A DNA stretch of 64,000 nucleotides from Burkholderiales bacterium. Lineage in GTDB: Bacteria > Pseudomonadota > Gammaproteobacteria > Burkholderiales > Burkholderiaceae_C. Below are positions 8,068 to 62,637 of the stretch, piece by piece. The DNA is taken from the NCBI GenBank assembly GCA_017307855.1, contig JAFKGD010000009.1, forward strand, positions 1 through 64,000, given 5' to 3'. The position numbers were made by a program, and so were the translations under genes. Under the pieces are notes generated by a model. That model ran no database searches. It saw only the letters and a list, made by a program, of their open reading frames with translations, and was not told where the DNA came from. Each line of letters begins with the position of its first letter. Position 1 is the stretch's first letter.

Positions 8068-10137
8068 TCAGTCGGCCAGCGCGGCCTGCATCAGTGCGTC
8101 GGCGGACAGCGGCATGTCGCGCATGCGGATGCCCACGGCATCGGCAACCGCATTGGCGATGGCGGCGGCCACCGGGCCGTGCGTGGCCTCGCCCGCGCCC
8201 AGCGACGGCTGGTCGGGCCGATGCATGAGCTCGACGTGCACCTCGGGCACTTCGGAAAAGCGCAGGATCGGGTAATCCTCCCAGCTCGTGCTCAGCACGC
8301 GCGTGTCGTCGAAACGCACGGCCTCCTTGAGCACCCAGCTCACGGTCTGGATGGCGCCGCCCTCGATCTGGTTGAGCACGCCGTCGGGGTTGACCACGCA
8401 GCCCACGTCCACGGCGATCCACAGGCGCCGCACGCGCACGGCCTCGGCGGCCTCGATCTCGGCCACGGCCGCGCACCAGGCACCGCTGCCTTTGTAGCGT
8501 GCGACACCCAGGCCGAACCCCGTGCCCTCGCTGTGTTCGCGCGCATCGCGGCCGGCCCATCCCGCGTTGCGCGCGGCGGCCTGCAGCACGTCGCGGGCGC
8601 GCGGATCGTCCAGGTGGCGCAGGCGGAATTCCAGCGGATCGCATTGCGCCGCCTCTGCCAGCTCGTCCATGAACGATTCGATGGCGAACACATTGCAATG
8701 CGCGCCCAGCGAGCGCAGCGACGAGGTGCGCAGCGGCATGTCGAGCACGCGGTGGCTGAGCACGCGCGCGTCGGGCAGCGCGTAGATCGGCACGGCGTTG
8801 CGCTCGCCGCCACCGCCCGCGCCCGGTGGCGGATTGACGGCCGTGACGGCAGGGAAGGGCTCGGCCAGTTGCGTGGCGGCCAGCAGCACGGGCACGTCGC
8901 CACCACGGCCCGGCCGCATGCTGTGACCGTTCGACCAGACCTCGTGCCGCCAGTGCGCGATGCGGCCCGTGTCATCCAGCCCGGCCGAGAGGCTCACCGC
9001 CATGGCCGCGCCGAACGGCGACCAGCCCAGCTCGTCCTCGCGGCTCCAGAGCACGCGCACCGGGCGGCCGGGCACAGCGCGCGCCAGCAGCGCGGCATCC
9101 ACTGCAGCGTCGTCGGCGCCGTTGTGGCCGTAGCAGCCGGCGCCCTGTGCGTGGTGCACGGTGATGTCATCGACAGGCCGACGCAGGAGCAACGCCAGAT
9201 CGGCGCGCAGGTGGAAGATGCCTTGCGTGTGGCTCCACACCTCCACGCCTTCGTCGGTCACCGTGGCCAGCGCGCACGACGGGCCGATGGACGCATGGGC
9301 GAGATAGGGGCGCGAATAGCTAGCGCCCAGATGGCGCAGCCCGGCCGGCGGCAGCGTGTCTGCGGCGGCGCCGGAGACGACGCGCGCCTCCGAACGCGCA
9401 GCACGCAGGAAAGCCGGCAGCGCCGCGGCATCGGGCAGCGTGGCCACCTCGTCCCACTGCGCCAGGGCGGCCAGCCGGCGGGCGGCTGCGATGGCACGGT
9501 GCTCGGCATCGGCCACCACGCCGAGGTACTGGCCGTCGTGCACCACCGCCACCACGCCGGGCAACGCGCGCACGGGCGCCACGTCCACATCGCGCAGCCG
9601 CGCGCCGCGCGAGGGCGGGCGCACTGCACGGCCGTGCAGCAGGCCCGGCGGCCGCAGGTCGTGCACGAACGCGGGCTGGCCGGCGATCTTGCCGGGCAGG
9701 TCGAGCCGCGCGACGTCTCGGCCGCGCAGCGTGAGTTCTTCGGCGGCGCGAGGCCGGGCCGCGCCCAGCGCCAGCCGTCCGGCCAGCGCGCCGGCCGGCA
9801 ACTGCCAGCCGTCGGCCGCGCCAAGCTGCCCGCACAGCGCGCGCACCTCGGCGCACACCTGCCGCAATGCGGCGCCCGATTCCTGCACCGACAGGCTGCC
9901 GGCCGTGAGCCCTTCGTTGGGCCCATGCGCCGTGGAGGCCGCGGCCATGCGGATGCGCGCCACGCCGATGCCGAGTTCGTCGGCCACGATCTGCGCCAGC
10001 ACGGTGGCGATGCCCTGCCCCAGTTCCACCTTGCCGGTGCGCACCGTGAGCGTGCCATCGGCCTCGAAGGCCAGCCACCGGGACAGCAGCGGATTGGCCG
10101 CCAGGCTGGCTGGCAACGCAGGCGACGCGCCGCTCAT
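8068..10137 (-). CDS. Molybdopterin-binding large subunit of a xanthine oxidase-family hydroxylase
   Basis: 689 aa, shorter than classic xanthine dehydrogenase large chains and close to the IorB/NicB-like single-chain type. The sequence carries GKVELGQGI near the N-terminus (molybdopterin cytosine dinucleotide contact), TQGIFHLRADLA in the middle, and the C-terminal GAGEATHGPVAAAIANAVADA whose Glu is the expected catalytic base. Start ATG at 10137 overlaps the stop of the Fe-S subunit gene (ATGA). No FAD-subunit gene adjoins, so electrons probably leave by another acceptor, as in isoquinoline 1-oxidoreductase. It would hydroxylate an N-heterocycle or aldehyde; substrate unknown. Confidence 0.87.
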   Translation of the reverse strand: MSGASPALPASLAANPLLSRWLAFEADGTLTVRTGKVELGQGIATVLAQIVADELGIGVARIRMAAASTAHGPNEGLTAGSLSVQESGAALRQVCAEVRALCGQLGAADGWQLPAGALAGRLALGAARPRAAEELTLRGRDVARLDLPGKIAGQPAFVHDLRPPGLLHGRAVRPPSRGARLRDVDVAPVRALPGVVAVVHDGQYLGVVADAEHRAIAAARRLAALAQWDEVATLPDAAALPAFLRAARSEARVVSGAAADTLPPAGLRHLGASYSRPYLAHASIGPSCALATVTDEGVEVWSHTQGIFHLRADLALLLRRPVDDITVHHAQGAGCYGHNGADDAAVDAALLARAVPGRPVRVLWSREDELGWSPFGAAMAVSLSAGLDDTGRIAHWRHEVWSNGHSMRPGRGGDVPVLLAATQLAEPFPAVTAVNPPPGAGGGGERNAVPIYALPDARVLSHRVLDMPLRTSSLRSLGAHCNVFAIESFMDELAEAAQCDPLEFRLRHLDDPRARDVLQAAARNAGWAGRDAREHSEGTGFGLGVARYKGSGAWCAAVAEIEAAEAVRVRRLWIAVDVGCVVNPDGVLNQIEGGAIQTVSWVLKEAVRFDDTRVLSTSWEDYPILRFSEVPEVHVELMHRPDQPSLGAGEATHGPVAAAIANAVADAVGIRMRDMPLSADALMQAALAD

Positions 10138-10619
10138 GCAGCGATGCCCTCGCGCAGCCGTTGCGCGGCCAGCCGCACGGCGCGCACGATGCGGTTGTGC
10201 GCGCCGCAGCGGCACAGGTGGCGATCGAGCGCCGCGCGCACGGCCGCGTCGGACGGATCGGCCTCGCGCGCCAGCAGCGCCGTGGCACTGACCAGGATGC
10301 CCGACAGGCAATAGCCGCACTGCCCCGCCTGCAGGTCAATGAAGGCCTGCTGAAGCGCCGCGCCGCGCGCGTCGTGCGCCAGGCCTTCGACGGTGACGAC
10401 GGTCTTGCCCTCGGCGGCCCACAGCGGCGTGTCGCACGACGGCACCGAGGCGCCGTCGATCAGCACATGGCAGGCGCCGCACTGGTTGGCGCCGCAGCCC
10501 AGGCGCGTACCGACGAGGCCGCAGCCGTCGCGCAGCACGTGGACGAGCGACACCTCGGGCTCCGCCAGTTCGGCGGGAACCTTGTGCACTGCACCGTTCA
10601 CATCGAGCCGCACCGCCAT
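10134..10619 (-). CDS. [2Fe-2S]-binding small subunit of the molybdenum hydroxylase
   Basis: 161 aa. Two [2Fe-2S] clusters are readable: the plant-ferredoxin type Cys42, Cys47, Cys50 and Cys62 (GCGANQCGAC...C), and the helical type Cys101, Cys104, Cys136 and Cys138 (GQCGYC ... CRCG). Length and order match IorA/NicA/CoxS-like small subunits. It is followed by the large subunit with a 4-base overlap and preceded by a Bug receptor 10 bases upstream, so all three are in one transcript. Confidence 0.92.
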   Translation of the reverse strand: MAVRLDVNGAVHKVPAELAEPEVSLVHVLRDGCGLVGTRLGCGANQCGACHVLIDGASVPSCDTPLWAAEGKTVVTVEGLAHDARGAALQQAFIDLQAGQCGYCLSGILVSATALLAREADPSDAAVRAALDRHLCRCGAHNRIVRAVRLAAQRLREGIAA

Positions 10620-35496: not shown

Positions 35497-35571
35497 CTCC
35501 CTGTAGTTCAATGGATAGAACGAGTGCCTCCTAAGCGCTAGATACAGGTTCGATTCCTGTCGGGGGGACCA
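35497..35571 (+). tRNA. tRNA-Arg (CCT anticodon), prophage attachment gene
   Basis: A 75-base cloverleaf with an acceptor stem CTCCCTG/CGGGGGG (two G-U pairs), D stem GTTC/GAAC, anticodon stem AGTGC/GCGCT, anticodon CCT at 35530-35532, T arm ACAGG-TTCGATT-CCTGT and an encoded CCA. The integrase begins 112 bases past the 3' end. The T arm and acceptor half are the probable attL core. Confidence 0.9.
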
Positions 35572-35683: not shown

Positions 35684-36607
35684 ATGGCCTACATCCGAAA
35701 GTACCGCGACAAGTGGCGCGCGGAAGTGGAGAAGCATGGCCACCGCGCATCTTTCGTCGCCGAGACGAAGCGAGAGGCCCAGGCCTGGGCGCTCAAGAAG
35801 GAGGCCGAGCTGGAGGCATTGAAGGGCTCCGGCGGCAAGACCTTGGGTGATGCGGTATCGCACTACCTCAAGACGGTGAGCGTCACCAAGAGCAGGCCGG
35901 AGTGGGAGGAGCGACGCTTCGACGAGTTCATGCGCCACTTCGGCGAGGACTGCCGCCTGGTCGACATCACGTCGGAGCGCATCGGCCAGTGGCGCGACAA
36001 GCGGCTTGAGACGGTGGTGGGAAACACGGTACTCCGTGAGGCCAACCTGTTCCGCAATCTGTTCACCGTGGCCGCCGACGAGTGGCGGTGGATCGACCGC
36101 AATCCGTTCAAGGGGGTGCGCCTGCCAGAGCAAGGACAGGCCCGCCATCAACTGTGGCGCTGGCAGTTGATCAAGAGGGTGCTGCGCGCCCCGCGGGACA
36201 AGAAGACGGCCGAGGTGATCAGGGCCTTCCACATTGCCCTGCACACGGGCCGGCGCCTATCCGAGATCCTGGAGGGTGAGTACGACCCGCGGCGCAAGGT
36301 CTGGATGCTGGAGAAGACCAAGACTACAGGCCGAATCGAGTTTCCCGTGCCTCGTCGAGCGCAGCGCCTGCTGCCGGTGAAATTCACGGTTGGCGCGAAC
36401 GAGGCAAGCGCGCTGTTCTCTCGGCTCACCAGACAGCTGCTGATCGAGGGCCTGACCTTTCACGACACGCGAGCCACAGCCATCACGCTGCTGTCGCGCC
36501 GGGTTGATGTCATGACGCTGGCCCGCATCAGCGGGCACCGAGACATCAACATCCTGCAAAACACCTACTACCGGGAAACGGCCGAGCAGATTGCAGCCCG
36601 GGTGTGA
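35684..36607 (+). CDS. int: Tyrosine recombinase (phage integrase)
   Basis: 307 aa. N-terminal arm and SAM-like DNA-binding parts (about 1-150) precede the catalytic domain. Catalytic residues: Arg191 (TGRRLSE), Lys near 212-214, His260 and Arg263 (HDTRAT), His285 (ISGHRD) and a Tyr at 295/296 (NTYYRE). It inserts and excises the prophage at tRNA-Arg. It reads away from the tRNA and is convergent with Rz1. No Shine-Dalgarno is seen; the repeats occupy that place. Confidence 0.92.
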   Translation: MAYIRKYRDKWRAEVEKHGHRASFVAETKREAQAWALKKEAELEALKGSGGKTLGDAVSHYLKTVSVTKSRPEWEERRFDEFMRHFGEDCRLVDITSERIGQWRDKRLETVVGNTVLREANLFRNLFTVAADEWRWIDRNPFKGVRLPEQGQARHQLWRWQLIKRVLRAPRDKKTAEVIRAFHIALHTGRRLSEILEGEYDPRRKVWMLEKTKTTGRIEFPVPRRAQRLLPVKFTVGANEASALFSRLTRQLLIEGLTFHDTRATAITLLSRRVDVMTLARISGHRDINILQNTYYRETAEQIAARV

Positions 36608-52829: not shown

Positions 52830-54158
52830 CTACTCCGTCTCCAGACGCTTTCTGCGCTGGCGTTTGATCAGGTCGTTGATGGAGACTTGCGTCTCGAATT
52901 TGGCCGGTTGATCGGCCTTCTTGGGCTGGGCTTCGCGCCAAGCAATCGCCATTTCACGGAAGGCGTCAGCCGGATGGCTCGTCCAGTCGTGCAGGGGCTT
53001 GTCCCGAAAAATCTTCTTGTCGTCGTCCCACTCGCGGCGATAAAGCTTCAGTGCTTCTATCCCTTCGTGGCATTTCTTGCGGTCGATCCAGACGCGCGGC
53101 ATCATCATCCGGGCCGCCTGAATGCCATCCTGCACGCTCAGCATCGGAACGATCAGGCTCGTGTAGCCAAAACTCTCAAACTGCTCCTGCGTGCTCTTCC
53201 CGCCAGATGCGAAGGTCTTTGCCGCAGCGTCATGCGGGAGCCAGAGGTAGGGTAACTTGCCCAGCTTCGCGTAGTTGTAGCCGCGAGCGTTGAGCATCTT
53301 TGCGTAGTACTCGACACCTTCTCCATTGGCCGCGAAGTAGTCGATAACCCGCACCTCACCGCGCACCATCTGCCAGAACCAGACGGCTGTATCGTCCGAG
53401 TAGCCGATGTCCCAAGCAGTGAAAACAGGCAAGCCTGGGTCGTAGGGGACATCCGTGATGCGCCCTTCTTCCTCAGCCTTGGCAATGTCCTTGGCGTAGT
53501 ACGCGCCAGCAACAGCCGCCTCGAACGAGCACTCGAATTCCTGCTCGTACTGGTCGTCCGTCATCCCTCGCCGGGCGTCTTCCAGTTCAACCGGGTCAAT
53601 CAGGCCCGAAGCACTCGCCCGCAGCCGAAGCTTGAACCACGCGGGATTGTCCTGCGCACCCTGCCACGCCGTGTAGAACTCGTTATGCCCCTTCGGGGTC
53701 CCGATGAACACGGCCCAACCCTTCCGGTCAGCGAGCATAGGCCGCACAATCTCGCCCCACACGCTTGAGCGCATGTCCGCGAACTCATCGAGGATCACGC
53801 CATCAAGGTAGAGCCCGCGCAACCGGTCGGGGTTGTCCGCCCCATACAGCCGGATCCGCGCACCGTTGGGCAAATCCGCCCGCAACTCTGACTCGTTGTA
53901 CTGAACACCAGGGATGTCCGCCGTCAACTGCTTGACGTACATCCAGGCGATGTCCTTGGCCTGGTTGTATTGGGGCGCCACATAAGCGTATCGAGCGTCT
54001 GACTTCTTGGTGAACAACGCCGACAGGACCAACTCAGCAACACAGGCGACCGTCTTACCCGCCCGGCGATGGCAAACCAGAATCGCCCACCGTTCAGCGC
54101 GGTTGTGGAAATCAATAAACGGCTGGCGAGGTGCGTATCCGTTGATCCCGCGCGTCAT
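52830..54158 (-). CDS. terL: Terminase large subunit
   Basis: 442 aa. ATPase domain: Walker A-like CHRRAGKT (29-36), Walker B VILDEFAD (121-128), motif III GTPKG. Nuclease domain: Asp250 (TAWDIGYSDDTA) and the C-terminal DWTSHPADAFR. The motor packages concatemeric DNA into heads. Follows the small subunit by a 4-base overlap. Related to the P22/phiKMV-distant podovirus group by general sequence. Confidence 0.9.
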   Translation of the reverse strand: MTRGINGYAPRQPFIDFHNRAERWAILVCHRRAGKTVACVAELVLSALFTKKSDARYAYVAPQYNQAKDIAWMYVKQLTADIPGVQYNESELRADLPNGARIRLYGADNPDRLRGLYLDGVILDEFADMRSSVWGEIVRPMLADRKGWAVFIGTPKGHNEFYTAWQGAQDNPAWFKLRLRASASGLIDPVELEDARRGMTDDQYEQEFECSFEAAVAGAYYAKDIAKAEEEGRITDVPYDPGLPVFTAWDIGYSDDTAVWFWQMVRGEVRVIDYFAANGEGVEYYAKMLNARGYNYAKLGKLPYLWLPHDAAAKTFASGGKSTQEQFESFGYTSLIVPMLSVQDGIQAARMMMPRVWIDRKKCHEGIEALKLYRREWDDDKKIFRDKPLHDWTSHPADAFREMAIAWREAQPKKADQPAKFETQVSINDLIKRQRRKRLETE

Positions 54159-54785: not shown

Positions 54786-54802
54786 GGCTGTCCTTTGAAA
54801 TG

Positions 54803-54834
54803 AAAAAGCCCGCTCAGTGCGAACACTGGCGGGC
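54803..54834 (-). terminator. Strong hairpin terminator downstream of the phage tRNAs
   Basis: GCCCGCTCAGTG (54808-54819) pairs, with one bulge, with CACTGGCGGGC (up to 54834); the minus strand then runs into a T5 tract. It would stop tRNA transcripts and anything from the early region. Confidence 0.85.
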
Positions 54835-54879
54835 AAGAGGCTTCGGCAACTGCTTGCGTTCAGCCTTGGAGGAGACAAG

Positions 54880-54955
54880 TGGAGCGTCCCGAGGGAATCG
54901 AACCCTGCTCAGCGAGGCTTGGAAGGCCTGCGACACGTCCCGCGTGCTGGAACGC
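54880..54955 (-). tRNA. Divergent tRNA-Gly (TCC) gene
   Basis: A 76-base cloverleaf: acceptor GCGTTCC/GGGACGC with T as discriminator and encoded CCA; anticodon loop CTTCCAA (anticodon 54921-54923); T loop TTCGATT. Odd points: C-C mismatches at the base of the anticodon and T stems, A for the usual U8, C for G10, and a short D loop. The 3' half matches tRNA-Gly(TCC) well. A decayed or specialised phage tRNA. Confidence 0.65.
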
Positions 54956-54961
54956 TTGAAT

Positions 54962-55039
54962 TGGTTGCGCCGGCCCGAGTCGAACGGGCGACCTGCAGGT
55001 TATGAGCCTGCCGAACTACCACCGCTGTTCTACGGCGCA
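54962..55039 (-). tRNA. tRNA-Met (CAT anticodon) gene
   Basis: 78 bases: acceptor TGCGCCG/CGGCGCA, D stem GAAC/GTTC, anticodon stem GCAGG/CCTGC with loop CTCATAA (anticodon at 55002-55004), T stem GCCCG/CGGGC with loop TTCGACT, A discriminator and encoded CCA. No C1-A72 mismatch, so not an initiator. A tRNA-Ile(CAT) precursor for lysidine is an alternative. Confidence 0.85.
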
Positions 55040-55044
55040 GAAAC

Positions 55045-55070
55045 GAGAAAGCCCTCCATTGCAGAGGGCT
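55045..55070 (-). terminator. Hairpin between the Q-like gene and the tRNAs
   Basis: AGCCCTC (55050-55056) pairs with GAGGGCT (55064-55070), followed on the minus strand by TTTCTC. A weak to moderate terminator in front of the tRNA pair. Bases 55071-55189 hold no gene; a CAACTG/CAGTTG dyad overlaps the Q-like stop. Confidence 0.6.
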
Positions 55071-55189
55071 CAGTCTCTGAGCTTTACCGGCAGCGCCGCC
55101 ATCCGTCATGGATGGGCGACTCCTATGCGTTTACGCTCAGTCGTTGGGGCCGCACGATACACGAAGTTTCGTAGCCGCACAACTGTTTT

Positions 55190-55579
55190 TTATCCAGTTG
55201 TTTTCGGGAGAAGGTTCAGCATCATCTGCCGGCCATCCCGGACGTAGAGAGCCAGGCCGGCCATGGTGCAGCCGAGCTTCTGGCACTGGGCGCTGGGGGA
55301 GCCGCGGCGCACATAGCACCAGTTCAGAGCCGCCCGGTGCTGTTTGGGGAGATTGGCCAGCGTCTTGGCGACGACCTGAGCATCCCTGCCATCAATCGGC
55401 GATCCGGCCTCAGTCCGCTCCCAGTGCTGATCTGGGCGGTACAGCCTGAACATCGGGGAGACGGTCGATCCGCCACGGCCGAAGCACCAGCGAGCCCAGT
55501 TTTCGAGCCGGCGGTGGACTTCTTCGTGCTTGGGCTCCACAGCGTGGAAATCGATCTGGTGTTTGACGCGCATCAGCAT
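55190..55579 (-). CDS. Putative late-gene regulator (Q antiterminator-like)
   Basis: 129 aa. RDAQVVAKTLANLPKQHRAALNWCYVRR followed by GCTMAGLALYVRDGRQMM resembles the C-terminal helix-turn-helix of phage Q/sigma-region-4-like late regulators. AAGGAGAGGG precedes the ATG. It is the last early-side gene before the tRNAs and terminase, where Q genes normally lie. Assignment is tentative. Confidence 0.45.
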   Translation of the reverse strand: MLMRVKHQIDFHAVEPKHEEVHRRLENWARWCFGRGGSTVSPMFRLYRPDQHWERTEAGSPIDGRDAQVVAKTLANLPKQHRAALNWCYVRRGSPSAQCQKLGCTMAGLALYVRDGRQMMLNLLPKTTG

Positions 55580-55592
55580 GCCCTCTCCTTCT

Positions 55593-55865
55593 TCATCTGG
55601 CGCACAGCGCCGCTACGGTGTTGTTCAGGACTGCCAACTCATCCAGACGCATCACGTCCCAGATCCGCTTCTGCCCGTGAATCCCGTTGTGCGCGCCACG
55701 ATGGCAATCCGGGCACAGGGGCACGGAGGTGAACCACTCGCCCTGGCGCAGCTCGTGAGCCTCTGACGGACCGCCAGCGCCACAGACACCGCACGGCATC
55801 CCTTTGATGCGCTCGATGTGCGCGCGCTCGGCTGTCGTCGGCTTGGCCTTGTTCTTGCTATGCAT
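55593..55865 (-). CDS. HNH/Ref-like zinc-binding nuclease
   Basis: 90 aa. Zinc ligands Cys25 and Cys28 (CGVC), Cys51 and Cys54 (CPDC), with catalytic-type His37 (EAHEL), His55 and His59. This is the layout of Ref/HNH-type small phage nucleases that aid recombination. Overlaps the RusA gene by 8 bases. Start ATG at 55865 fits the family length. Confidence 0.72.
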   Translation of the reverse strand: MHSKNKAKPTTAERAHIERIKGMPCGVCGAGGPSEAHELRQGEWFTSVPLCPDCHRGAHNGIHGQKRIWDVMRLDELAVLNNTVAALCAR

Positions 55866-56223
55866 GGCCGATCTCCAGAACCACCCTGCCCGGCTTCTCG
55901 CCGAACTCCCGGCGCACCGTGACCGGCTCGAAATGCTGGTCATCCACACCCAGCGCCAAGGAGACACCATCGAGCATGGATTTGCAGGCGGCCAGCAGGT
56001 TGTCTCGGTCGCGCGGCCGGCGGTCAGGCTGCACGAACGTGATGGACAGCGGCAGCGTGCCCCGGGGTGGGGTGTAACCCGCCTGCCGCATGGCCTGCAG
56101 AGCCAGGATGCGCGCGTCGGCCTTCTGGACGGCCTTCAGGCTGCTGGTGGCGGCCCAATGCATGCCCTTGGAGCGGTTGGGGTTGAGCCGAGAGTCCGGC
56201 CATGGGAGCTCGACGCGCAGCAT
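55858..56223 (-). CDS. rusA: RusA-like Holliday junction resolvase
   Basis: 121 aa. RusA family pattern: N-terminal ELPWPDSRLNPNR, then Asp72 and Asp74 (RDRDN), Lys81 and Asp85 (KSMLD), and Asp94/Asp95 (GVDDQ). These acidic residues bind metal for symmetric cleavage of four-way junctions formed in phage recombination. Together with the Ref-like nuclease it forms a recombination pair. Confidence 0.85.
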   Translation of the reverse strand: MLRVELPWPDSRLNPNRSKGMHWAATSSLKAVQKADARILALQAMRQAGYTPPRGTLPLSITFVQPDRRPRDRDNLLAACKSMLDGVSLALGVDDQHFEPVTVRREFGEKPGRVVLEIGHA

Positions 56224-56233
56224 CAGGCCGCGA

Positions 56234-56509
56234 TCAGAACTGCCAAGTGGCCGCCTTGACCGCCCACATCTGGCCGGTCTGCAGCTCGGTAATCGCCACG
56301 GAGTACATGCGGATCTGGTCCGCCGTCGCGGATTCAGCGCTGCGCAGAGCGTGCAGGCGATCAATGGCCAGCGCGAAATCGCGCTTGATGAACTCGACGG
56401 TCTTGTTGCCGCTGGGGTTAAAGCTGAGGCCCACGGCCTTCTCGCCAAAAGTCAATTCTCGTTGCGCGGGCTCGCTCTCGCCTTGGTATGTATTGCTGTC
56501 GTCGTTCAC
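56234..56509 (-). CDS. Candidate Acb2/Tad1 hairpin-domain protein (anti-CBASS / anti-Thoeris type)
   Basis: 91 aa, GTG start with AGGAG 5 bases upstream. Two conserved helical segments: LTFGEKAVGLSFNPSGNK (about 19-36) and IRMYSVAITELQTGQMWAVK (about 66-85) followed by AATW. This double-helix pattern is widespread in phages and, to my knowledge, is classed with the Acb2/Tad1 hairpin domain, whose members bind cyclic oligonucleotide or gcADPR signals and block CBASS or Thoeris immunity. The first 20 residues are low in similarity. It lies 10 bases before rusA in the early operon, suitable for early expression. Activity is inferred, not shown. Confidence 0.6.
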   Translation of the reverse strand: MNDDSNTYQGESEPAQRELTFGEKAVGLSFNPSGNKTVEFIKRDFALAIDRLHALRSAESATADQIRMYSVAITELQTGQMWAVKAATWQF

Positions 56510-56559
56510 TTGCTTCTCCTAAATGGCCGCCCGAAGCGCGGGGCGGCTTCGCGTTTCGG

Positions 56560-57012
56560 TCAGGCCCACCCCTCCACGATCATGTCCATGAGCCGGTCGG
56601 CCGTGGCCCGGTCCATCTGCGGCAGGATGAACTGCAGCACGGCATCAATGGCGGCGCTGTAGAAGGCGTCAAATGCCTCCTGATCCATGGCCTCGTAGCT
56701 GATGGACTTGGGCACCTGGATGAGCTCGCCCGTGCGGGGGTCAATCGCCGGCTCAACGTGGCCGACACACAACTTGATGGCCACCAGCGCTTTTTCGACG
56801 GTGGGGTAGACCTCGCTGTTCTCGGTGACGAGCTGCAGCAGGGCGAACATCTTGCGGTGATGGGCGCCGTTGCGCGGGCTGCTCCACTCGAAGCGCAGCC
56901 ATTTGCCCGGCTTCATGGTCTCGAGCTTGCGCTTGAACTTGGCCCATGCTTCCTGATCGGCCGGGGTGGAGCCGCGCAGGCCAGCCGGGGTGCGGATCAG
57001 GACGGCTTTCAT
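56560..57012 (-). CDS. DUF1367-like phage protein
   Basis: 150 aa. SSPRNGAHHRKMFALLQLVTENSE and EPAIDPRTGELIQVPKSISY followed by FDAFYSAAIDAVLQF are typical of DUF1367, a phage recombination-region family of unknown function. The His-His near 51-52 could bind metal. Overlaps the 74-aa gene upstream by ATGA. Confidence 0.8.
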   Translation of the reverse strand: MKAVLIRTPAGLRGSTPADQEAWAKFKRKLETMKPGKWLRFEWSSPRNGAHHRKMFALLQLVTENSEVYPTVEKALVAIKLCVGHVEPAIDPRTGELIQVPKSISYEAMDQEAFDAFYSAAIDAVLQFILPQMDRATADRLMDMIVEGWA

Positions 57013-57233
57013 CCCGGCACCTGTCCATGGAAATACGCCATCGGCAGCGGCTCCAGATGCGCGGCGTCTGCCTGCAACCTGGCTCCGAGCCAGCCGTCCC
57101 GGATCTCGGCCACCCGGACGTTCTCGCCAGACTCCAGCGCGATCACCTTGGTGCCGGCGTAGTCGTAGGCGTGGCCTTGCTGGGCGACGGTGCTGCCATT
57201 GCCTCGCGCAGCCTCTCGGACATCCCAACCCAT
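57009..57233 (-). CDS. 74-aa phage protein overlapping its upstream neighbour
   Basis: 74 aa. A small beta-type sequence (YDYAGTKVIALESGENVRVA, then EIRDGWLGARLQ). Its stop overlaps the DUF1367 start (ATGA), a strong sign it is translated. The first 91 bases overlap the 68-aa gene (57143-57349) in another frame. Weak ribosome site. Function unknown. Confidence 0.6.
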   Translation of the reverse strand: MGWDVREAARGNGSTVAQQGHAYDYAGTKVIALESGENVRVAEIRDGWLGARLQADAAHLEPLPMAYFHGQVPG

Positions 57234-57349
57234 CGGCCACTGCCGCACGCCTCCAGCTCCTTGGCTCGGTGCCAGGCGTGAGCCTTCGCCCCGGGGATGC
57301 GCGCCATGCGCACCAGGTGCTGTAGCTGGATGTCGAATGGGTCGGTCAT
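57143..57349 (-). CDS. 68-aa phage protein
   Basis: 68 aa; DPFDIQLQHLVRMARIPGAK and HRAKELEACGSGRW. Starts in an ATGA overlap with the gene upstream (57346) and has AAGGG ahead of the ATG. Ser/Thr/Pro-rich end may be unstructured. No family recognised. Confidence 0.6.
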   Translation of the reverse strand: MTDPFDIQLQHLVRMARIPGAKAHAWHRAKELEACGSGRWVGMSERLREAMAAPSPSKATPTTTPAPR

Positions 57350-57525
57350 GCATTGCGGGCCCTTTCGAGGTTCGCCAGCAGGCGCGAATTGGCGCGGCGC
57401 TTCGCTGCGGCCAGACCAAGAGTCCGCGTTGGCAGGATCGCGCGCGCACGCTCCGCGATCAGTGGATGCACAGGAACGCCGCGGCGGATGTCGGCGTCGA
57501 TGAGGCGGGCTTCTTCTTGGGTCAT
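57346..57525 (-). CDS. 59-aa basic phage protein
   Basis: 59 aa: MTQEEARLIDADIRRGVPVH, then LAAAKRRANSRLLANLERAR. A basic C-terminal helix suggests nucleic-acid contact. ATGA overlaps on both sides. Unknown function. Confidence 0.55.
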   Translation of the reverse strand: MTQEEARLIDADIRRGVPVHPLIAERARAILPTRTLGLAAAKRRANSRLLANLERARNA

Positions 57526-57656
57526 GCAACGGGCTCCCCAAGGGTGCGCAGCGCCCACGTCACGGCCTGCCGCGAGTGATTCAGGCCGGCGCGCACGTCG
57601 TCGAGGATCTTGTGTGCGCGCAGCTTCGTCGGGTCGGTGGTGAAGTGCGCGGTCAT
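57522..57656 (-). CDS. 44-aa phage protein
   Basis: 44 aa: TDPTKLRAHKILDDVRAGLN and HSRQAVTWALRTLG, probably two helices. Coupled by ATGA overlaps to its neighbours at 57653 and 57525, so translation is likely. Unknown function. Confidence 0.55.
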   Translation of the reverse strand: MTAHFTTDPTKLRAHKILDDVRAGLNHSRQAVTWALRTLGEPVA

Positions 57657-58303
57657 GCGGCGATCCTCGGCTGCAGGTTGTCGATCGCCAGCACTTCGAC
57701 CGGCCGATACGTGATGGCGGTCTTGCCGGCCACGTTGCCACCCTGGTACACGGCGCGGCATTTCGCCTCGTCGCCGATGAGAGCGGGGCGCGGCAGCTTG
57801 AGGCCCTTCTTCTCGTACTCGCTGTCAGGCGAACGGTCCCCGGCGAGTCGGCGCGGGTACTCGAACTGCCCCCGGCCCGTGTACGCCTTGTGCGACAGGC
57901 AGAAGCGGTGCTGCAGGTGGCTCAGCTCCTTGATGTCGGTCCGGCATACCTTCGGCCAGCCGCCCAGGTCTTCGATGCAGGCGTGGATGGCTGGGTCGTC
58001 GAAGATCACATCGGTGTAGGCGTCGACGCTCGACATGGCCTCCAGTGCCTTGCCCCAAGCCAGCTGAGCGCGGTCGGTATGCGTGCCCTGCAGGATGCGC
58101 ACGATGTCGGCGACCTTCGGCGCGAACTGGCCGTGCTCGGGGTCGGTGGCGTGAGCGGTCATGGCCTTCTGCACCTGCTCGAGCGTGAAGGGCTGGCATG
58201 CCTGCACCCAGACCTGCAGCGTGAACTCGCTCACCGGCTGGCGGTAGTACGCGAGTGCGTCCGTGACCAGCGCGACCAGCGCCGGCTTGTCAGTGGCCTG
58301 CAT
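57653..58303 (-). CDS. DUF6475-like replication-region protein
   Basis: 216 aa. VALVTDALAYYRQPVSEFTL, QFAPKVADIVRILQGTHTDR and VIFDDPAIHACIEDLGGWPKV match the DUF6475 domain of phage replication modules, probably an ATPase-loader or DnaC-like accessory. It follows the O-like gene with a 14-base overlap. Function not proven. Confidence 0.75.
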   Translation of the reverse strand: MQATDKPALVALVTDALAYYRQPVSEFTLQVWVQACQPFTLEQVQKAMTAHATDPEHGQFAPKVADIVRILQGTHTDRAQLAWGKALEAMSSVDAYTDVIFDDPAIHACIEDLGGWPKVCRTDIKELSHLQHRFCLSHKAYTGRGQFEYPRRLAGDRSPDSEYEKKGLKLPRPALIGDEAKCRAVYQGGNVAGKTAITYRPVEVLAIDNLQPRIAA

Positions 58304-59069
58304 GGGCGGCCTCCTTCTCGAGGAATCGCGCAGCGACAGCGCGGTTGGATGCCTCCAGCGCTTCCTGCGCGTTCGGCTTGGTCTTGGCGCCACCAGGCGG
58401 CAGCGCGGCGGCCAGCCACTCGAGTGGCTGGAGCGGCTTGGCACGGATGCACTCGCGCAGCACGCCGATCACCGCCTCGTCGCCGTGCGCCTTCCGCAGC
58501 CCGCCCAGGAAGGACCGGGCCTGCTTGTCGGCGGTGCCAGCGCTCGTCAGCAGCGGCACGCCGTAGCCGAAGATGATCTCGTCCGGGGTCAGCGGCGCCT
58601 TGGCGCCCGTACCGTCAGGTACGGAAGACTCTTCTCTTCTCTTCTCTTCTCTGGTCACGTTTTCGTCACGCTGGTTGCGTGACATAGACGAGACACCATC
58701 GTGACCATCGGCGTGACCGGTAGAGGACGCACGCTGCTTTTGCTTGCGATTCGCGCCCAACGCGCGGGATTTGGCCGTATCTCCGTTGTGCAGGGCGAAG
58801 TTGGGGAAGTTGACGCCGTCGTCGCCGATCTCGAGCCAGCCTACAGCAACCATCGCTTCCGCGAAGCCGTCACGCTGAACCTTGCGATTGATCCACGCTG
58901 CTGTCACGCCGTGAGCGTGACCATCGCGTGACTGAACATCAGCCCAGCTCCACAGCGCGTGGAGCCGCCCGACCACGGAGAACTCGTCCATGCCCAGCGC
59001 CGCGGCCATGCCGATCACCGCCGGATCGTCCGGCAGACTCACACGCATCTTGATCCAGTCGCCGGCCAT
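58290..59069 (-). CDS. Phage replication initiator-like (winged-helix) protein
   Basis: 259 aa. N-terminal winged-helix region (SLPDDPAVIGMAAALGMDEF, then VVGRLHALWSWADVQSRDG) followed by VTAAWINRKV, VGWLEIGDDG and a basic, flexible middle (NRKQKQRAS). Typical of O-like initiators or DnaD-type loaders. TGATG overlap with the gene upstream. Confidence 0.75.
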   Translation of the reverse strand: MAGDWIKMRVSLPDDPAVIGMAAALGMDEFSVVGRLHALWSWADVQSRDGHAHGVTAAWINRKVQRDGFAEAMVAVGWLEIGDDGVNFPNFALHNGDTAKSRALGANRKQKQRASSTGHADGHDGVSSMSRNQRDENVTREEKRREESSVPDGTGAKAPLTPDEIIFGYGVPLLTSAGTADKQARSFLGGLRKAHGDEAVIGVLRECIRAKPLQPLEWLAAALPPGGAKTKPNAQEALEASNRAVAARFLEKEAAHAGH

Positions 59070-59389
59070 CAGACCACCAGCGCCCAAAGCTTGCCGCCGC
59101 TGGTCCCATGCCCACGCTTGCGGGGCAGGTCCGAGCGAAGGCAGCGGATGAGGTTCTTGCGCGACAGGCTGTGGAAGATGCCGCCGAATGCTCGATCGTC
59201 CTTGGCGTGGGCGCCGTGAGCGCGGGCGACCTCGACAAGATCCTCCCCGGCCGTTGCGCCGTTGTCGCGGAGGTGCCGCAGGATGGCGGTCTTGGCCACC
59301 TCGGCGAAGTCGGGCGAGCGGTCCAGTGCGGCCAGCAGAGAGAGCTGCATGCCGGCCTGGCCGGCGGCTTGGGCTTGCTGGAGGTTCAT
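59069..59389 (-). CDS. 106-aa early protein
   Basis: 106 aa. A winged-helix-like run: AKTAILRHLRDNGATAGEDL and GIFHSLSRKNLIRCL. The C-terminal KRGHGTSGGKLWAL resembles a DNA-contact tail. A small DNA-binding role is plausible (inference). ATGA overlap with the preceding gene. Confidence 0.55.
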   Translation of the reverse strand: MNLQQAQAAGQAGMQLSLLAALDRSPDFAEVAKTAILRHLRDNGATAGEDLVEVARAHGAHAKDDRAFGGIFHSLSRKNLIRCLRSDLPRKRGHGTSGGKLWALVV

Positions 59390-59763
59390 TGCGGCCTGAT
59401 CTCCAGCTTCTTCTCTTCGATCTCGACGAAGGTCCAGCCGGCCTTCTCGGCCAGCGACTTGCACTCACGCGCGGCGGACTCGAGTTCGTAGGGCTTGGAG
59501 CGCACGGGCTTCTTCTTGAAGGTCATGCGCCAGTGCTCCAGGTCGAACTCAGGCGGCAGCTTCGCGAGCCCTTCGCTCCGAGCCGTGCGGGCGGCAGCTT
59601 CGCGAGCCCTTCGCGCTTCTTCTTCTGCGCCGGGCGGGATGCCGATCACGCGCCAACCGTTGTGAAAGCTGACCGGGTCTTTCGCCGGTCTCTTGAGCTT
59701 TTTGGAGGCGCCGGCAATGCTGACCGGGTCGCCGTGGACGTTGACGAAGTTGAGGGCGCTCAT
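59386..59763 (-). CDS. 125-aa early protein with an internal out-of-frame duplication
   Basis: 125 aa. The middle (AEEEARRAREAAARTARSEG) is encoded by one of two perfect 25-base repeats (59552-59576, 59590-59614), 38 bases apart, so the copies read in different frames. The rest includes WRVIGIPPG and FKKKPVRSKPYE. Unknown function. Overlaps both neighbours by 4 bases. Confidence 0.55.
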   Translation of the reverse strand: MSALNFVNVHGDPVSIAGASKKLKRPAKDPVSFHNGWRVIGIPPGAEEEARRAREAAARTARSEGLAKLPPEFDLEHWRMTFKKKPVRSKPYELESAARECKSLAEKAGWTFVEIEEKKLEIRPQ

Positions 59764-60128
59764 GCTGGTGCTCCGAGTACCCGGCGAAGGGCTGCGTTTT
59801 CCTCGCGAAGAAGCCGGTTTTCTCGCTCGGTCGTCGTCTCCTGACGGCGGACGCTGTAAAGGTCGTAGCCCCGCTGGTGCAACATCCACAGGACCGGGGC
59901 GTCATTGCCGCAGCGATCCATCAACTCGGTGAACTTGGCCCACTGCACGCCCTCGGTGCCCGACTGCCAGCGCGAGAACTGGGCCTTGTCGACCTTGAGT
60001 TCCTGCTGCAGCGACTTGTCGAGAGCGAAGCCGCCCAGCTCGGCGCACAGTTCAATGGCGCCGCCCAGAGATTGCTTGCGCATCACCTCTTCGGGACGGA
60101 CGGGGACGGGGATTGCGAGTTGGTTCAC
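59760..60128 (-). CDS. Early regulator-like helix-turn-helix protein
   Basis: 122 aa from a GTG at 60128. After VPVRPEEVMRKQSLGGAIELC, a helix-turn-helix (LQQELKVDKAQFSRWQSGTE) is followed by CGNDAPVLWMLHQRGYDL and a C-terminal helix. Related proteins in betaproteobacterial phages take the place of CII. A TTG 12 bases upstream is an alternative start. Transcribed behind the Cro-like gene. Confidence 0.7.
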   Translation of the reverse strand: MNQLAIPVPVRPEEVMRKQSLGGAIELCAELGGFALDKSLQQELKVDKAQFSRWQSGTEGVQWAKFTELMDRCGNDAPVLWMLHQRGYDLYSVRRQETTTERENRLLREENAALRRVLGAPA

Positions 60129-60259
60129 GTTGGTGCTCAAGAAGGTTGAGAGCTGTTGCGGACCTTGGCGGGGCAAATAAAAAGAGGATTCAGGCCATGG
60201 AACAAGAGCCGAATCCGTGGGTACAGGTGGTGGATGCGCTGCCGGCGTGGATGCGGGCG

Positions 60260-60523
60260 TCAGGCCGGCGCGGTGGCGTCGACGGTGCCGGCCTGCATGC
60301 GCAGGACATCCCAAGCGACATCGGGGCGAAGGTCTTCGCAGCGGACCTGACCGTTTGTGACGCGCTCGATGGCGGGGCAGTGCTCGGCGGGAACGCGGGT
60401 CTTTACCCACGACTGCACTGTCTGGTAGCGTTCGATGTCGAGCTTTCGGGCTGCAGCCACAGGGCCGCCAAGCAGATCGACGGCTCTCGCTGCCGCCTGC
60501 TGGGAGTTGAATTTCTTGGGCAT
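60260..60523 (-). CDS. Cro/YdaS-like regulator
   Basis: 87 aa. AARAVDLLGGPVAAARKLDI, YQTVQSWVKTRVPAEHCPAI and RCEDLRPDVAWDVL match YdaS/Cro-like phage regulators. AAGG lies 6 bases before the ATG. First gene of the leftward early operon, divergent from cI with the operator between them. Confidence 0.82.
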   Translation of the reverse strand: MPKKFNSQQAAARAVDLLGGPVAAARKLDIERYQTVQSWVKTRVPAEHCPAIERVTNGQVRCEDLRPDVAWDVLRMQAGTVDATAPA

Positions 60524-60534
60524 GCTTACCTTTG

Positions 60535-60565
60535 CAAGAAGTTCTAGTAATGCTAGATGATCTTG
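60535..60565. promoter_or_regulatory. cI/cro operator: inverted pair of CTAG-N4-TCTTG half-sites
   Basis: CAAGA-AGTT-CTAG (60535-60547) and CTAG-ATGA-TCTTG (60553-60565) face each other around position 60550, a 31-base dyad. Between Cro and CI, it is the natural operator. Each half-site is 13 bases and their starts are 18 bases apart. Confidence 0.7.
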
Positions 60566-60578
60566 TATTGGCTGGCAA
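60550..60578 (-). promoter_or_regulatory. Predicted sigma-70 promoter of the cro/early operon
   Basis: On the minus strand, TTGCCA (60578-60573), a 17-base spacer and TAGCAT (60555-60550) form a -35/-10 pair. The -10 lies on the centre of the CI operator, so CI binding should shut it off. Confidence 0.55.
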
Positions 60579-60603
60579 GGGGCCACATGAAAAACTTGCG
60601 CGC

Positions 60604-61263
60604 ATGTCAATTCATGAGCAGATCCGCGCAAAACGACTGGCCAAAGGCTGGTCGATGGAAACGCTTGCCGCAGAGGTGAGCAAGGCGGAGGGCATGGAGA
60701 AGCCCCTGTCTTGGCAGACTGTCCAGCAGTGGGAGGCCGGGAAATCGGCTCCTAAACGAAGCAGGCTCGAAACCGTAGCTACGCTACTGGAAACCACGCT
60801 GGGCGCCCTGATGGAAGAGTCATCCTCAAATGTCGCGGCCGCTCCGGCGCTAGCTACTTCGCGTTACATTCCGGTCGTGGGACACGTTAAGGCCGGCCCG
60901 GATGGCTTTCTGGAAGAGATGGACTACCCGACCGGCCACGGCGAGGGGTCTGTTGAGTATTGGGCGCGCGATCCGTCTGCCTACGCTCTGAGGGTCAAAG
61001 GCGACTCGATGCACCCCCGTTATCGTGCTGGCGAGTTCATCGTTGTGACGCCCAGCATTGAGGCTCAGCCGGGTCGCGACGTGGTGGTGAAGCTCAAGGA
61101 CGGCCGCAAGCTGCTCAAGCAGCTCAATTGGATTCGTGGCGGCGAAGCGCAGCTACTGAGCATCAATGACGGCTATGCGCCCAACACGCTGGACATGGCC
61201 GAGATCGACTCTATTCACCGGGTGGCAGGCAGTGTGCCGCCGGATGCTTTTCAGAACGACTAG
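60604..61263 (+). CDS. cI: CI-like repressor (LexA/S24 family)
   Basis: 219 aa. N-terminal helix-turn-helix (HEQIRAKRLAKGWSMETLA, SWQTVQQWEAGKSAP) and C-terminal S24 domain. The autocleavage site is probably Ala97-Gly98 (HVKAGPD), with Ser135 (GDSMHP) and Lys172 (KLLKQL) as the dyad, so RecA-stimulated cleavage and SOS induction are expected. Start at 60604 is the first helix; a longer frame begins inside the operator and is less likely. Ribosome site is weak, as in many CI genes. Confidence 0.87.
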   Translation: MSIHEQIRAKRLAKGWSMETLAAEVSKAEGMEKPLSWQTVQQWEAGKSAPKRSRLETVATLLETTLGALMEESSSNVAAAPALATSRYIPVVGHVKAGPDGFLEEMDYPTGHGEGSVEYWARDPSAYALRVKGDSMHPRYRAGEFIVVTPSIEAQPGRDVVVKLKDGRKLLKQLNWIRGGEAQLLSINDGYAPNTLDMAEIDSIHRVAGSVPPDAFQND

Positions 61264-61272
61264 GAGGGGAAG

Positions 61273-61845
61273 ATGGCACTGCAGAAATGCCACGAATGTG
61301 GCGCCCAGGTGAGCAGCGAGGCGAAAGCGTGCCCGAGCTGTGGAGCGAAGCCCAAAAAGTCAGTCGGACTAGTGGGCATCATCGTCGCCGGCATCTTCGG
61401 CATCATCATTTTCAACGCCGCGAGCGGTTCGGGCGGTAGCTCGTCCAGTGCTACCGCATCTGCGCGACCGGCCACGCCTCCCCCTATTCAGCGCAGCCCC
61501 GAGGTACAGAAGGAGATCGCCCGGCTGCGCGCGGTGGAGTTCAACGCCTTCTGTTCGCGCGAGCTGTCTAAGGTGAAAAAGCTGCCGGCGCAGTGGCCAC
61601 AACCATGGGGAGAGGCAATGCTGGTTGTTATGGCCGACTACGGGGTCACGCAAACCCACCTCGACCACATCAAGACGGGATCTGCCGTGGTGGGAATGAG
61701 CCCTTGCGGCGGCATCGCGAGCTGGGGGCGGCCGGAGAGCATCAACCGTACCACGACCAGCTCCACTGTTCGCGAGCAATGGGTCTACAACCTGCGGAGC
61801 TACCTGTATTTCACGAACGACAAGCTGACGTCGATCCAGAACTGA
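61273..61845 (+). CDS. Zinc-ribbon, membrane-anchored accessory protein
   Basis: 190 aa. An N-terminal zinc ribbon (CHECGAQVSSEAKACPSCGAK, four Cys) is followed by a membrane helix (SVGLVGIIVAGIFGIIIFNA), a Ser/Pro linker and a C-terminal domain ending LRSYLYFTNDKLTSIQN. The last part resembles SmpA/OmlA-type folds. AGGAGGGG precedes the ATG, and it lies 9 bases after cI, so it is probably made in the lysogen. Possible lysogenic-conversion or exclusion role (inference). Confidence 0.65.
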   Translation: MALQKCHECGAQVSSEAKACPSCGAKPKKSVGLVGIIVAGIFGIIIFNAASGSGGSSSSATASARPATPPPIQRSPEVQKEIARLRAVEFNAFCSRELSKVKKLPAQWPQPWGEAMLVVMADYGVTQTHLDHIKTGSAVVGMSPCGGIASWGRPESINRTTTSSTVREQWVYNLRSYLYFTNDKLTSIQN

Positions 61846-62259: not shown

Positions 62260-62637
62260 CTAACTCTTGGTGACGAACTTCCCGATCAGCGCCGTGACAG
62301 GCACGCTGACAACCGCGATGGCTACCGCCGTGTGACCGAGTATTGCCAAGTAGACGGCAGCGGCTATAGCAACCAGCGTGATGACACCGCCAAGTATCTT
62401 GCCGCCGATGACATCAGCGACTTCGGCTCTGAAGGACCTCCGATCCATCGCAATCCGGTGCGCCTGTTCAACCTCAACGAGCTTCATGATGCGCTCGGCC
62501 CCATCAGGGATGATGTCGTTGAATTGGCTGAGTGCGCCAGGCGGCGGGAGGGGCCCAGACCACTCCGCCGATACAAGGGAGCCTGCCCGAGGTGGGCTAG
62601 CTGGATTCGCGGGTGCTGGCGGCGGCTTTTTTGCCAT
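62260..62637 (-). CDS. DUF2335-like membrane protein
   Basis: 125 aa. WSGPLPPPGALSQFNDIIPD, AERIMKLVEVEQAHR and two C-terminal membrane spans (ILGGVITLVAIAAAVYLAIL, then AVAIAVVSVPVTALIG) match DUF2335. Such proteins occur in phage and plasmid accessory regions; function unknown. It overlaps the secreted-like protein upstream by 41 bases. Confidence 0.78.
   Translation of the reverse strand: MAKKPPPAPANPASPPRAGSLVSAEWSGPLPPPGALSQFNDIIPDGAERIMKLVEVEQAHRIAMDRRSFRAEVADVIGGKILGGVITLVAIAAAVYLAILGHTAVAIAVVSVPVTALIGKFVTKS

Follow-up and report, generated by a model that had tools for sequence, protein, structure and literature searches.

Which defence signal may be targeted by a small prophage-borne gene that lies between two recombination genes in the genome of a Burkholderiales bacterium (GenBank assembly GCA_017307855.1)? 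The gene occupies positions 56234–56509 of the minus strand of the window, that is, of the whole analysed stretch of 64,000 nucleotides (contig JAFKGD010000009.1, positions 1 to 64,000), and the original prediction, made from the sequence alone, described its product as a candidate anti-defence protein of the Acb2/Tad1 type. The 91-residue protein is very probably a nucleotide-signal sponge of the Acb2 type. The favoured explanation as a whole, an Acb2-type sponge acting on cyclic oligonucleotide signals, is held with nearly the same confidence.

The list of open reading frames and the translation give a product of 91 amino acids starting with GTG at 56509, and the Shine–Dalgarno sequence AGGAG is found at 56516–56520, six bases 5' of the start codon (AGGAG-AAGCAA-GTG). 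The predicted length, the GTG start and the strong AGGAG are all present. The open frame itself comprises 94 codons. Since its first in-frame ATG is Met68 and other in-frame GTG and TTG codons occur, the assignment of the start depends on the AGGAG. The gene is confirmed to be real and conserved, not a chance open frame: relatives were found at 71 loci in viral contigs, with best-segment identities of 34–77%, and at 24 loci in bacterial genomes, among them Polaromonas, Limnohabitans, Dyadobacter, Spirosoma and Novosphingobium.

The comparison with the Acb2/Tad1 hairpin-domain profile, proposed together with the original prediction, was passed. The protein matches the Pfam family PF24729 (Acb2_Tad1_hairpin) over profile positions 18–57 of 58 with E 7.9e-8 and 32.8 bits, above the curated cut-off of 27; T4 Vs.4 (Acb2) matches the same family at 7.1e-20. 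It also matches PHROG 717 (E 1.7e-5), which according to PMC10097602 is the PHROG containing the homologues of T4 Vs.4/Acb2. Searches with the query yielded no match in NCBIfam at E ≤ 0.1 and none in PADLOC at E ≤ 0.01. The PF24729 family is present in three of the 100 related genomes searched, this genome included.

The relatives were retrieved with peptide patterns including ELTFGEKA, QTGQMWAV and NKTVEFIK, FG.K being additionally required. Nine of the 71 viral loci were excluded as broken, truncated or deviant (L054, L059, L060, L065, L066, L069 and L070–L072), and L040 failed the motif filter. Sixty-two proteins, query included, were reduced at 88% identity to 35, of which 31, the query and 30 relatives, form the alignment used below (L030, L061, L064 and L067 are left out). 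Twenty-six of these 31 match PF24729 at E ≤ 0.01. Invariance at residues 18–25 and 77–84 is partly by construction, as these are covered by the patterns ELTFGEKA and QTGQMWAV; F30, K42, K85, T88 and W89 lie outside these two, K42 being inside the third one.

This alignment was compared by hhalign with profiles of the CHARACTERISED Acb2 proteins, that is, PaP2 Acb2 (p26, PDB 8h2j; the name is given in a legend in PMC11722364) and T4 Vs.4 (PDB 7uq2). Local alignment with the PaP2 Acb2 profile (80 relatives reduced to 57 rows) has a score of 40.8 (E 1.5e-7, 49 columns), and with the Vs.4 profile (34 relatives reduced to 17 rows) a score of 30.8 (E 2.3e-5, 26 columns). Column-shuffled profiles, 200 in number, all stayed below both scores, with maxima of 22.7 for PaP2 and 22.4 for Vs.4, and the reversed profiles scored 13.3 and 10.6, respectively. 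The PaP2 Acb2 and Vs.4 families score 61.6 against each other; therefore the present branch is further from each of them than those two are mutually.

The AlphaFold2 model built with the 31-row alignment (pLDDT 90.6, pTM 0.74) consists of a short helix, residues 21–25, and a hairpin of two long helices, residues 36–56 and 63–88. It has no strand, and residues 1–20 are mostly of low confidence. These helices agree with the Acb2 protomer as described in a review (PMC12043709), a short helix plus a hairpin. The codons of the short helix (FGEKA, inside the motif RELTFGEKAxGxxFNP) are at 56435–56449 of the minus strand; they are followed by those of a loop, residues 26–35, at 56405–56434, which contains P32 and F30, and by those of the first hairpin helix with K42 at 56342–56404. 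The codons of the second hairpin helix, at 56246–56323, include those of R67, A72, T74, G79, A83, K85 and T88. The original prediction spoke of two helical blocks, GEKAVGLSFNPSG and AITELQTGQMWAVKA. Both sequences are present, as residues 22–34 and 72–86, and the latter indeed lies inside the second long helix; the former, however, is the short helix followed by the loop, and the first helix of the hairpin is formed by residues 36–56 instead.

A single chain thus folds as a paired-helix hairpin in the model, and its best matches in the viral structure library BFVD are of the same kind; for the single chain, the fold comparison proposed with the original prediction was therefore passed as well. 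At E ≤ 0.001 the library holds exactly two matches. Each bears the name Acb2/Tad1 hairpin domain-containing protein, and their TM-scores by query length are 0.71 and 0.64. The small residues A72, G79 and A83 align with the hexamer-interface positions A66, A73 and A77 of Vs.4, the comparison covering these three of the four interface residues (the fourth is L29). By analogy, the 91-residue protein may assemble into a homo-hexamer.

According to PMC10097602, cyclic GMP-AMP (cGAMP) is contacted in Vs.4 by Y8, H11, K23, R79 and F82, Y8 stacking on the ligand, and mutants at Y8 and F82 did not inhibit CapV. In the extended Vs.4 alignments, whose N-terminal part is weak, these residues are opposite F30, S33, K42, K85 and T88, one of the five (the lysine opposite K23) being identical. 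F30, K42, K85 and T88 are invariant in all 31 rows and S33 varies; with 18 invariant columns among 78, the hypergeometric P for four invariant positions out of five is 0.009, the alignment being weak at F30. In the PaP2 Acb2 alignment, R67 and T74 are matched by residues of the same name and number, and both are frequent on the two sides (26 and 25 of the 31 rows here, 51 and 52 of the 57 PaP2-family rows). We assume R67 of PaP2 Acb2 to be implicated in trinucleotide binding.

With PaP2 Acb2 the protein shares the hairpin family, the length of about 90 residues, the QTG-Q-M / QTG-M-M segment and G79, which is in register like R67 and T74; unlike it, it has K85 for R85 and RELTFGEKAxGxxFNP in place of KIKGYRDLSQEE, and single-sequence similarity is not recognisable. 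With Vs.4, besides the Pfam family and the PHROG, it shares the order of a short helix, an aromatic-x-Pro loop, a lysine, the hairpin and an MWA-x-(K/R)-A end. The likeness to Tad1 (PDB 7uav) is that of a helical hairpin of the same kind, judged by the Pfam family name alone. Tad1 carries an N-terminal beta sheet before the hairpin (PMC12043709), which has no counterpart in the model. Because of this missing beta domain, Tad1 identity was set aside, and the assignment to the Acb2/Tad1 type, supported by the data above, is narrowed to the Acb2 type.

What would such a sponge bind in this host? The search of the genome with profiles yielded one SMODS match for a cGAS/DncV-like nucleotidyltransferase (CD-NTase). 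It belongs to a complete type III cyclic oligonucleotide-based antiphage signalling system (CBASS), whose genes for TRIP13, HORMA, CD-NTase and NucC are consecutive on one strand of the contig numbered 9 here (L103:7492-11036). The matches are strong (TRIP13 3.2e-155, HORMA 9.2e-88, Cyclase 2.4e-152, NucC 1.5e-114, as well as bacHORMA_2 3.8e-92 and SMODS 1.4e-21). The CD-NTase is identical to PDB chain 6p8u in 297 of 300 positions, and NucC to chain 6q1h in 240 of 241. We take these two to be Pseudomonas aeruginosa proteins and the enzyme to be a maker of cyclic tri-adenylate (cA3), and the CD-NTase of this cell presumably makes cA3 as well. The stretch of 3545 bases is 99.5% identical to a segment of a Tistrella mobilis plasmid. 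Open reading frames around it resemble conjugation genes by eye (e.g. L103:14457-16649), and the CBASS is possibly carried on an integrative conjugative element.

NucC is activated by cyclic tri-AMP (cAAA), according to the review PMC10419184, and Acb2 binds cA3 and inhibits NucC, according to the review PMC12043709. Since the type III CBASS of this genome has NucC, NucC responds to cA3, and Acb2 binds cA3, the latter is the first candidate ligand. Whether it is the physiologically relevant one in this host we consider evenly balanced; cyclic dinucleotides are likely further ligands. The original prediction remains right in that the sequence does not disclose the ligand, but the NucC-type CBASS makes cA3 a specific guess. 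In the proposed mechanism, hairpin protomers would assemble, by analogy into a hexamer, and bind cyclic oligonucleotides at the interfaces between protomers, sequestering these alarm signals without degrading them. The signal in this cell would most likely be cA3, produced by its own CD-NTase and read by NucC, a DNA-destroying effector. With NucC kept off, the host DNA could stay intact until the phage progeny is made, after entry or induction.

Several observations weigh against this explanation. Forced global profile alignments have lower scores than the local ones, 29.9 for PaP2 and 17.4 for Vs.4, and the confident local alignments span just 49 and 26 columns. The N-terminal alignment is insecure, as F30 faces Y8 in Vs.4 but has a gap, and not Y11, opposite it in PaP2 Acb2. 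The contact positions themselves are altered (Y8 to F, H11 to S, R79 to K, and F82 to T with an adjacent W, W89), and the motif RELTFGEKA is missing from both Vs.4 and PaP2 Acb2, hence the ligand preference may differ. No solved Acb2 chain was retrieved from the PDB by a single-sequence phmmer search, and in a profile search of the PDB, a designed TIM barrel (E 0.0022) ranked ahead of Vs.4 (7uq2), whose E value was no better than 0.17. Foldseek yielded nothing in the PDB at E ≤ 0.001, and Acb2 was absent from the best 50 of 71 rows; with a helical hairpin of this small size, such a result says little for or against. Then, CD-NTases are not enriched in the bacteria that carry relatives: 23 of the 24 bacterial loci were considered (all except L100), and a match over the cut-off was found in three of the 23 carrier genomes versus seven of the 100 related genomes, this one included (four and eight, respectively, at E ≤ 0.001). 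Finally, a single host with a CBASS could be a coincidence, and as prophage and CBASS persist together in a lysogen, this CBASS is not necessarily what the sponge acts on.

The chance matches encountered in these searches were dismissed. These are the TIM barrel, which has several weak repeats, a phosphate-binding protein at E 0.18 in the single-sequence PDB search, and AcrIIC4, the top Foldseek row in the PDB, at E 0.94.

The alternative that survives best retains the Acb2-type sponge and changes its target: it would act mainly on cyclic dinucleotides made by the CBASS of other hosts, the cA3 system of this cell being incidental. Of the five residues that face the cGAMP pocket of Vs.4 in the alignment, four are invariant, which agrees with this, as does the lack of CD-NTase enrichment in the carriers. 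On the other hand, Acb2 is said in the review PMC12043709 to bind cyclic trinucleotides more tightly than dinucleotides, and at separate sites. Moreover, R67 and T74 are in register with PaP2 Acb2 and common in both families. We thus see a primary role against dinucleotides as a real but rather doubtful option.

The branch defined by RELTFGEKAxGxxFNP could also consist of distinct sponges that bind a signal new for Acb2, for instance the N7-cyclic ADP-ribose (N7-cADPR) of the TIR–caspase system of this genome (see below), besides or instead of cA3. The features altered here would be those of the ligand loop and the aromatic end, F30 and T88–W89. The branch is represented by the 31 aligned rows, and relatives occur in genomes labelled as Proteobacteria, genera of Bacteroidota, Saccharibacteria and Hoyosella. 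We consider this reading improbable; if it were true, it would point to an unrecognised target of phage counter-defence.

A sponge of the Tad1 kind would instead be directed against Thoeris, capturing cyclic ADP-ribose isomers made by Toll/interleukin-1 receptor (TIR) enzymes. One such enzyme is encoded in this genome: on contig 11, a ThsB_TIR gene (1.2e-7, L104 8798-9187) is followed by a Peptidase_C14 gene (9.6e-19, 9187-10176). The type IV Thoeris system is described in PMC12847820 as a TIR gene with a gene for a caspase-like protease, where N7-cADPR made by the TIR protein activates the protease, and the pair on contig 11 is a candidate for this type. After the CBASS, it is the second defence of this genome to be considered as a target. 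The Pfam hairpin family names Tad1 as well, and Tad1 (7uav) is in the Foldseek list, at ranks 24 and 38 with the non-significant E values of 6.4 and 7.6. Against this stands the model, which has no strand, with residues 1–20 mostly of low confidence, and a Thoeris sponge is accordingly unlikely. The open reading frames flanking the TIR–caspase pair look by eye like integrases. A search of this genome for STALD (ThsA) found none, the controls being also without a match, so that this is no proof of absence. As Acb2 triggers Panoptes, the Panoptes cyclase (mCpol) was sought too; none was found in this genome, and one control genome matched below the cut-off.

A further alternative, a hairpin of the same superfamily with a lost or changed function, e.g. 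a scaffold or regulator beside recombination genes, draws on the simplicity of the fold, on the strong conservation of RELTFGEKA, not seen in characterised Acb2, and on the varied locations of the relatives, terminase-proximal in two of the four annotated phages examined, but is made improbable by the invariant F30, K42, K85 and T88 at the contact positions of Vs.4 (with the reservation on F30 given above).

For the Acb2-type sponge, the family was known; what is added is a broad motif-bearing branch whose members are mostly "hypothetical" in phage annotation. Phage records matching the query number 147, of which 142 are from Flavobacterium, and among the 60 listed, 59 are annotated as hypothetical protein and one has no annotation. 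The two BFVD relatives already carry the hairpin name. Proteins of Pasteurella phage Pmp11, phage DSL-LC05, Enterobacter phage EcP1 and Flavobacterium phage FCL-2 are 40.6–57.5% identical over 75–82% of the query; they belong to other phages and hosts, and their annotation is merely hypothetical. A literature search by the name or accession of the hairpin family found no paper, which shows only the absence of that wording. One member of the branch shares its cell with a CBASS near-identical to the one with solved CD-NTase and NucC structures, and because of this the ligand question is testable with existing reagents.

The setting of the gene agrees with the prediction that it stands next to recombination genes. 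It is flanked upstream by the gene of a NinB/Orf homologous recombination mediator (56560–57027, phrog_319, E 1.2e-27) and downstream by that of a RusA-like Holliday junction resolvase (55861–56226, phrog_34, E 6.1e-17), both on the minus strand. Next on this strand is a small phage gene, possibly HNH (55593–55862), matching phrog_1588 of unknown function at E 1.5e-13 and weak HNH families from E 0.0037. The leftward block is headed by a transcriptional repressor gene, "Cro-like" by position (60260–60631, minus strand, phrog_35, E 1.3e-13), opposite that of a CI-like repressor with an S24 peptidase domain (60532–61263, plus strand, Pfam and PHROG matches). Early transcription of the sponge gene, as originally proposed, is plausible from the gene order. 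The promoter scan of 54800–61300 found one promoter-like site against 0.8 expected, which is the chance level, and the terminator scan was at the chance level, too.

An integrase gene (35684–36607, plus strand, phrog_1, E 9.1e-32) is situated beside tRNA-Arg (CCT) at 35497–35571, and the genes for the portal, the major head protein and terminase identified by the PHROG search, including the terminase large subunit (52830–54158, phrog_2, E 4.5e-45), are on the minus strand. A 16-base stretch from the 3' end of this tRNA is found again about 37 kb away, at position 72475 of the contig (contig 16 in the genome), beyond the window, and is a probable attachment repeat. The sponge gene is thus a part of a prophage, the length of which is probably about 37 kb.

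In a comparison by sequence of the neighbours of the relatives at 91 loci (L002–L069 and L077–L099), NinB was found at one, on the opposite strand, and RusA at none; the small HNH-like gene was found at three and terminase at four. Among the four annotated phages examined, an annotated RusA gene is situated within 3 kb of the relative in two (Pmp11 and FCL-2), and terminase genes in two (Pmp11 and DSL-LC05).

Some minor observations concern individual loci. L065 and L066 come from the opposite ends of a single viral contig of 84697 bases, with same-sized stretches in opposite orientation and a frame-broken sponge gene; a palindrome created during assembly may explain this contig. In L075 (G053:C86:5693-5788), a partial match to the hairpin family lies within an open frame of 469 codons, possibly as a domain of a longer protein. 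In the prophage itself, tRNA-Gly (TCC) and tRNA-Met (CAT) are located at 54880–55039 of the minus strand, with the terminase genes on one side and the recombination block on the other. Beyond the repressor, the minus strand at 62260–62637 encodes a membrane protein of the moron and host-takeover category (phrog_3996, E 7e-29).
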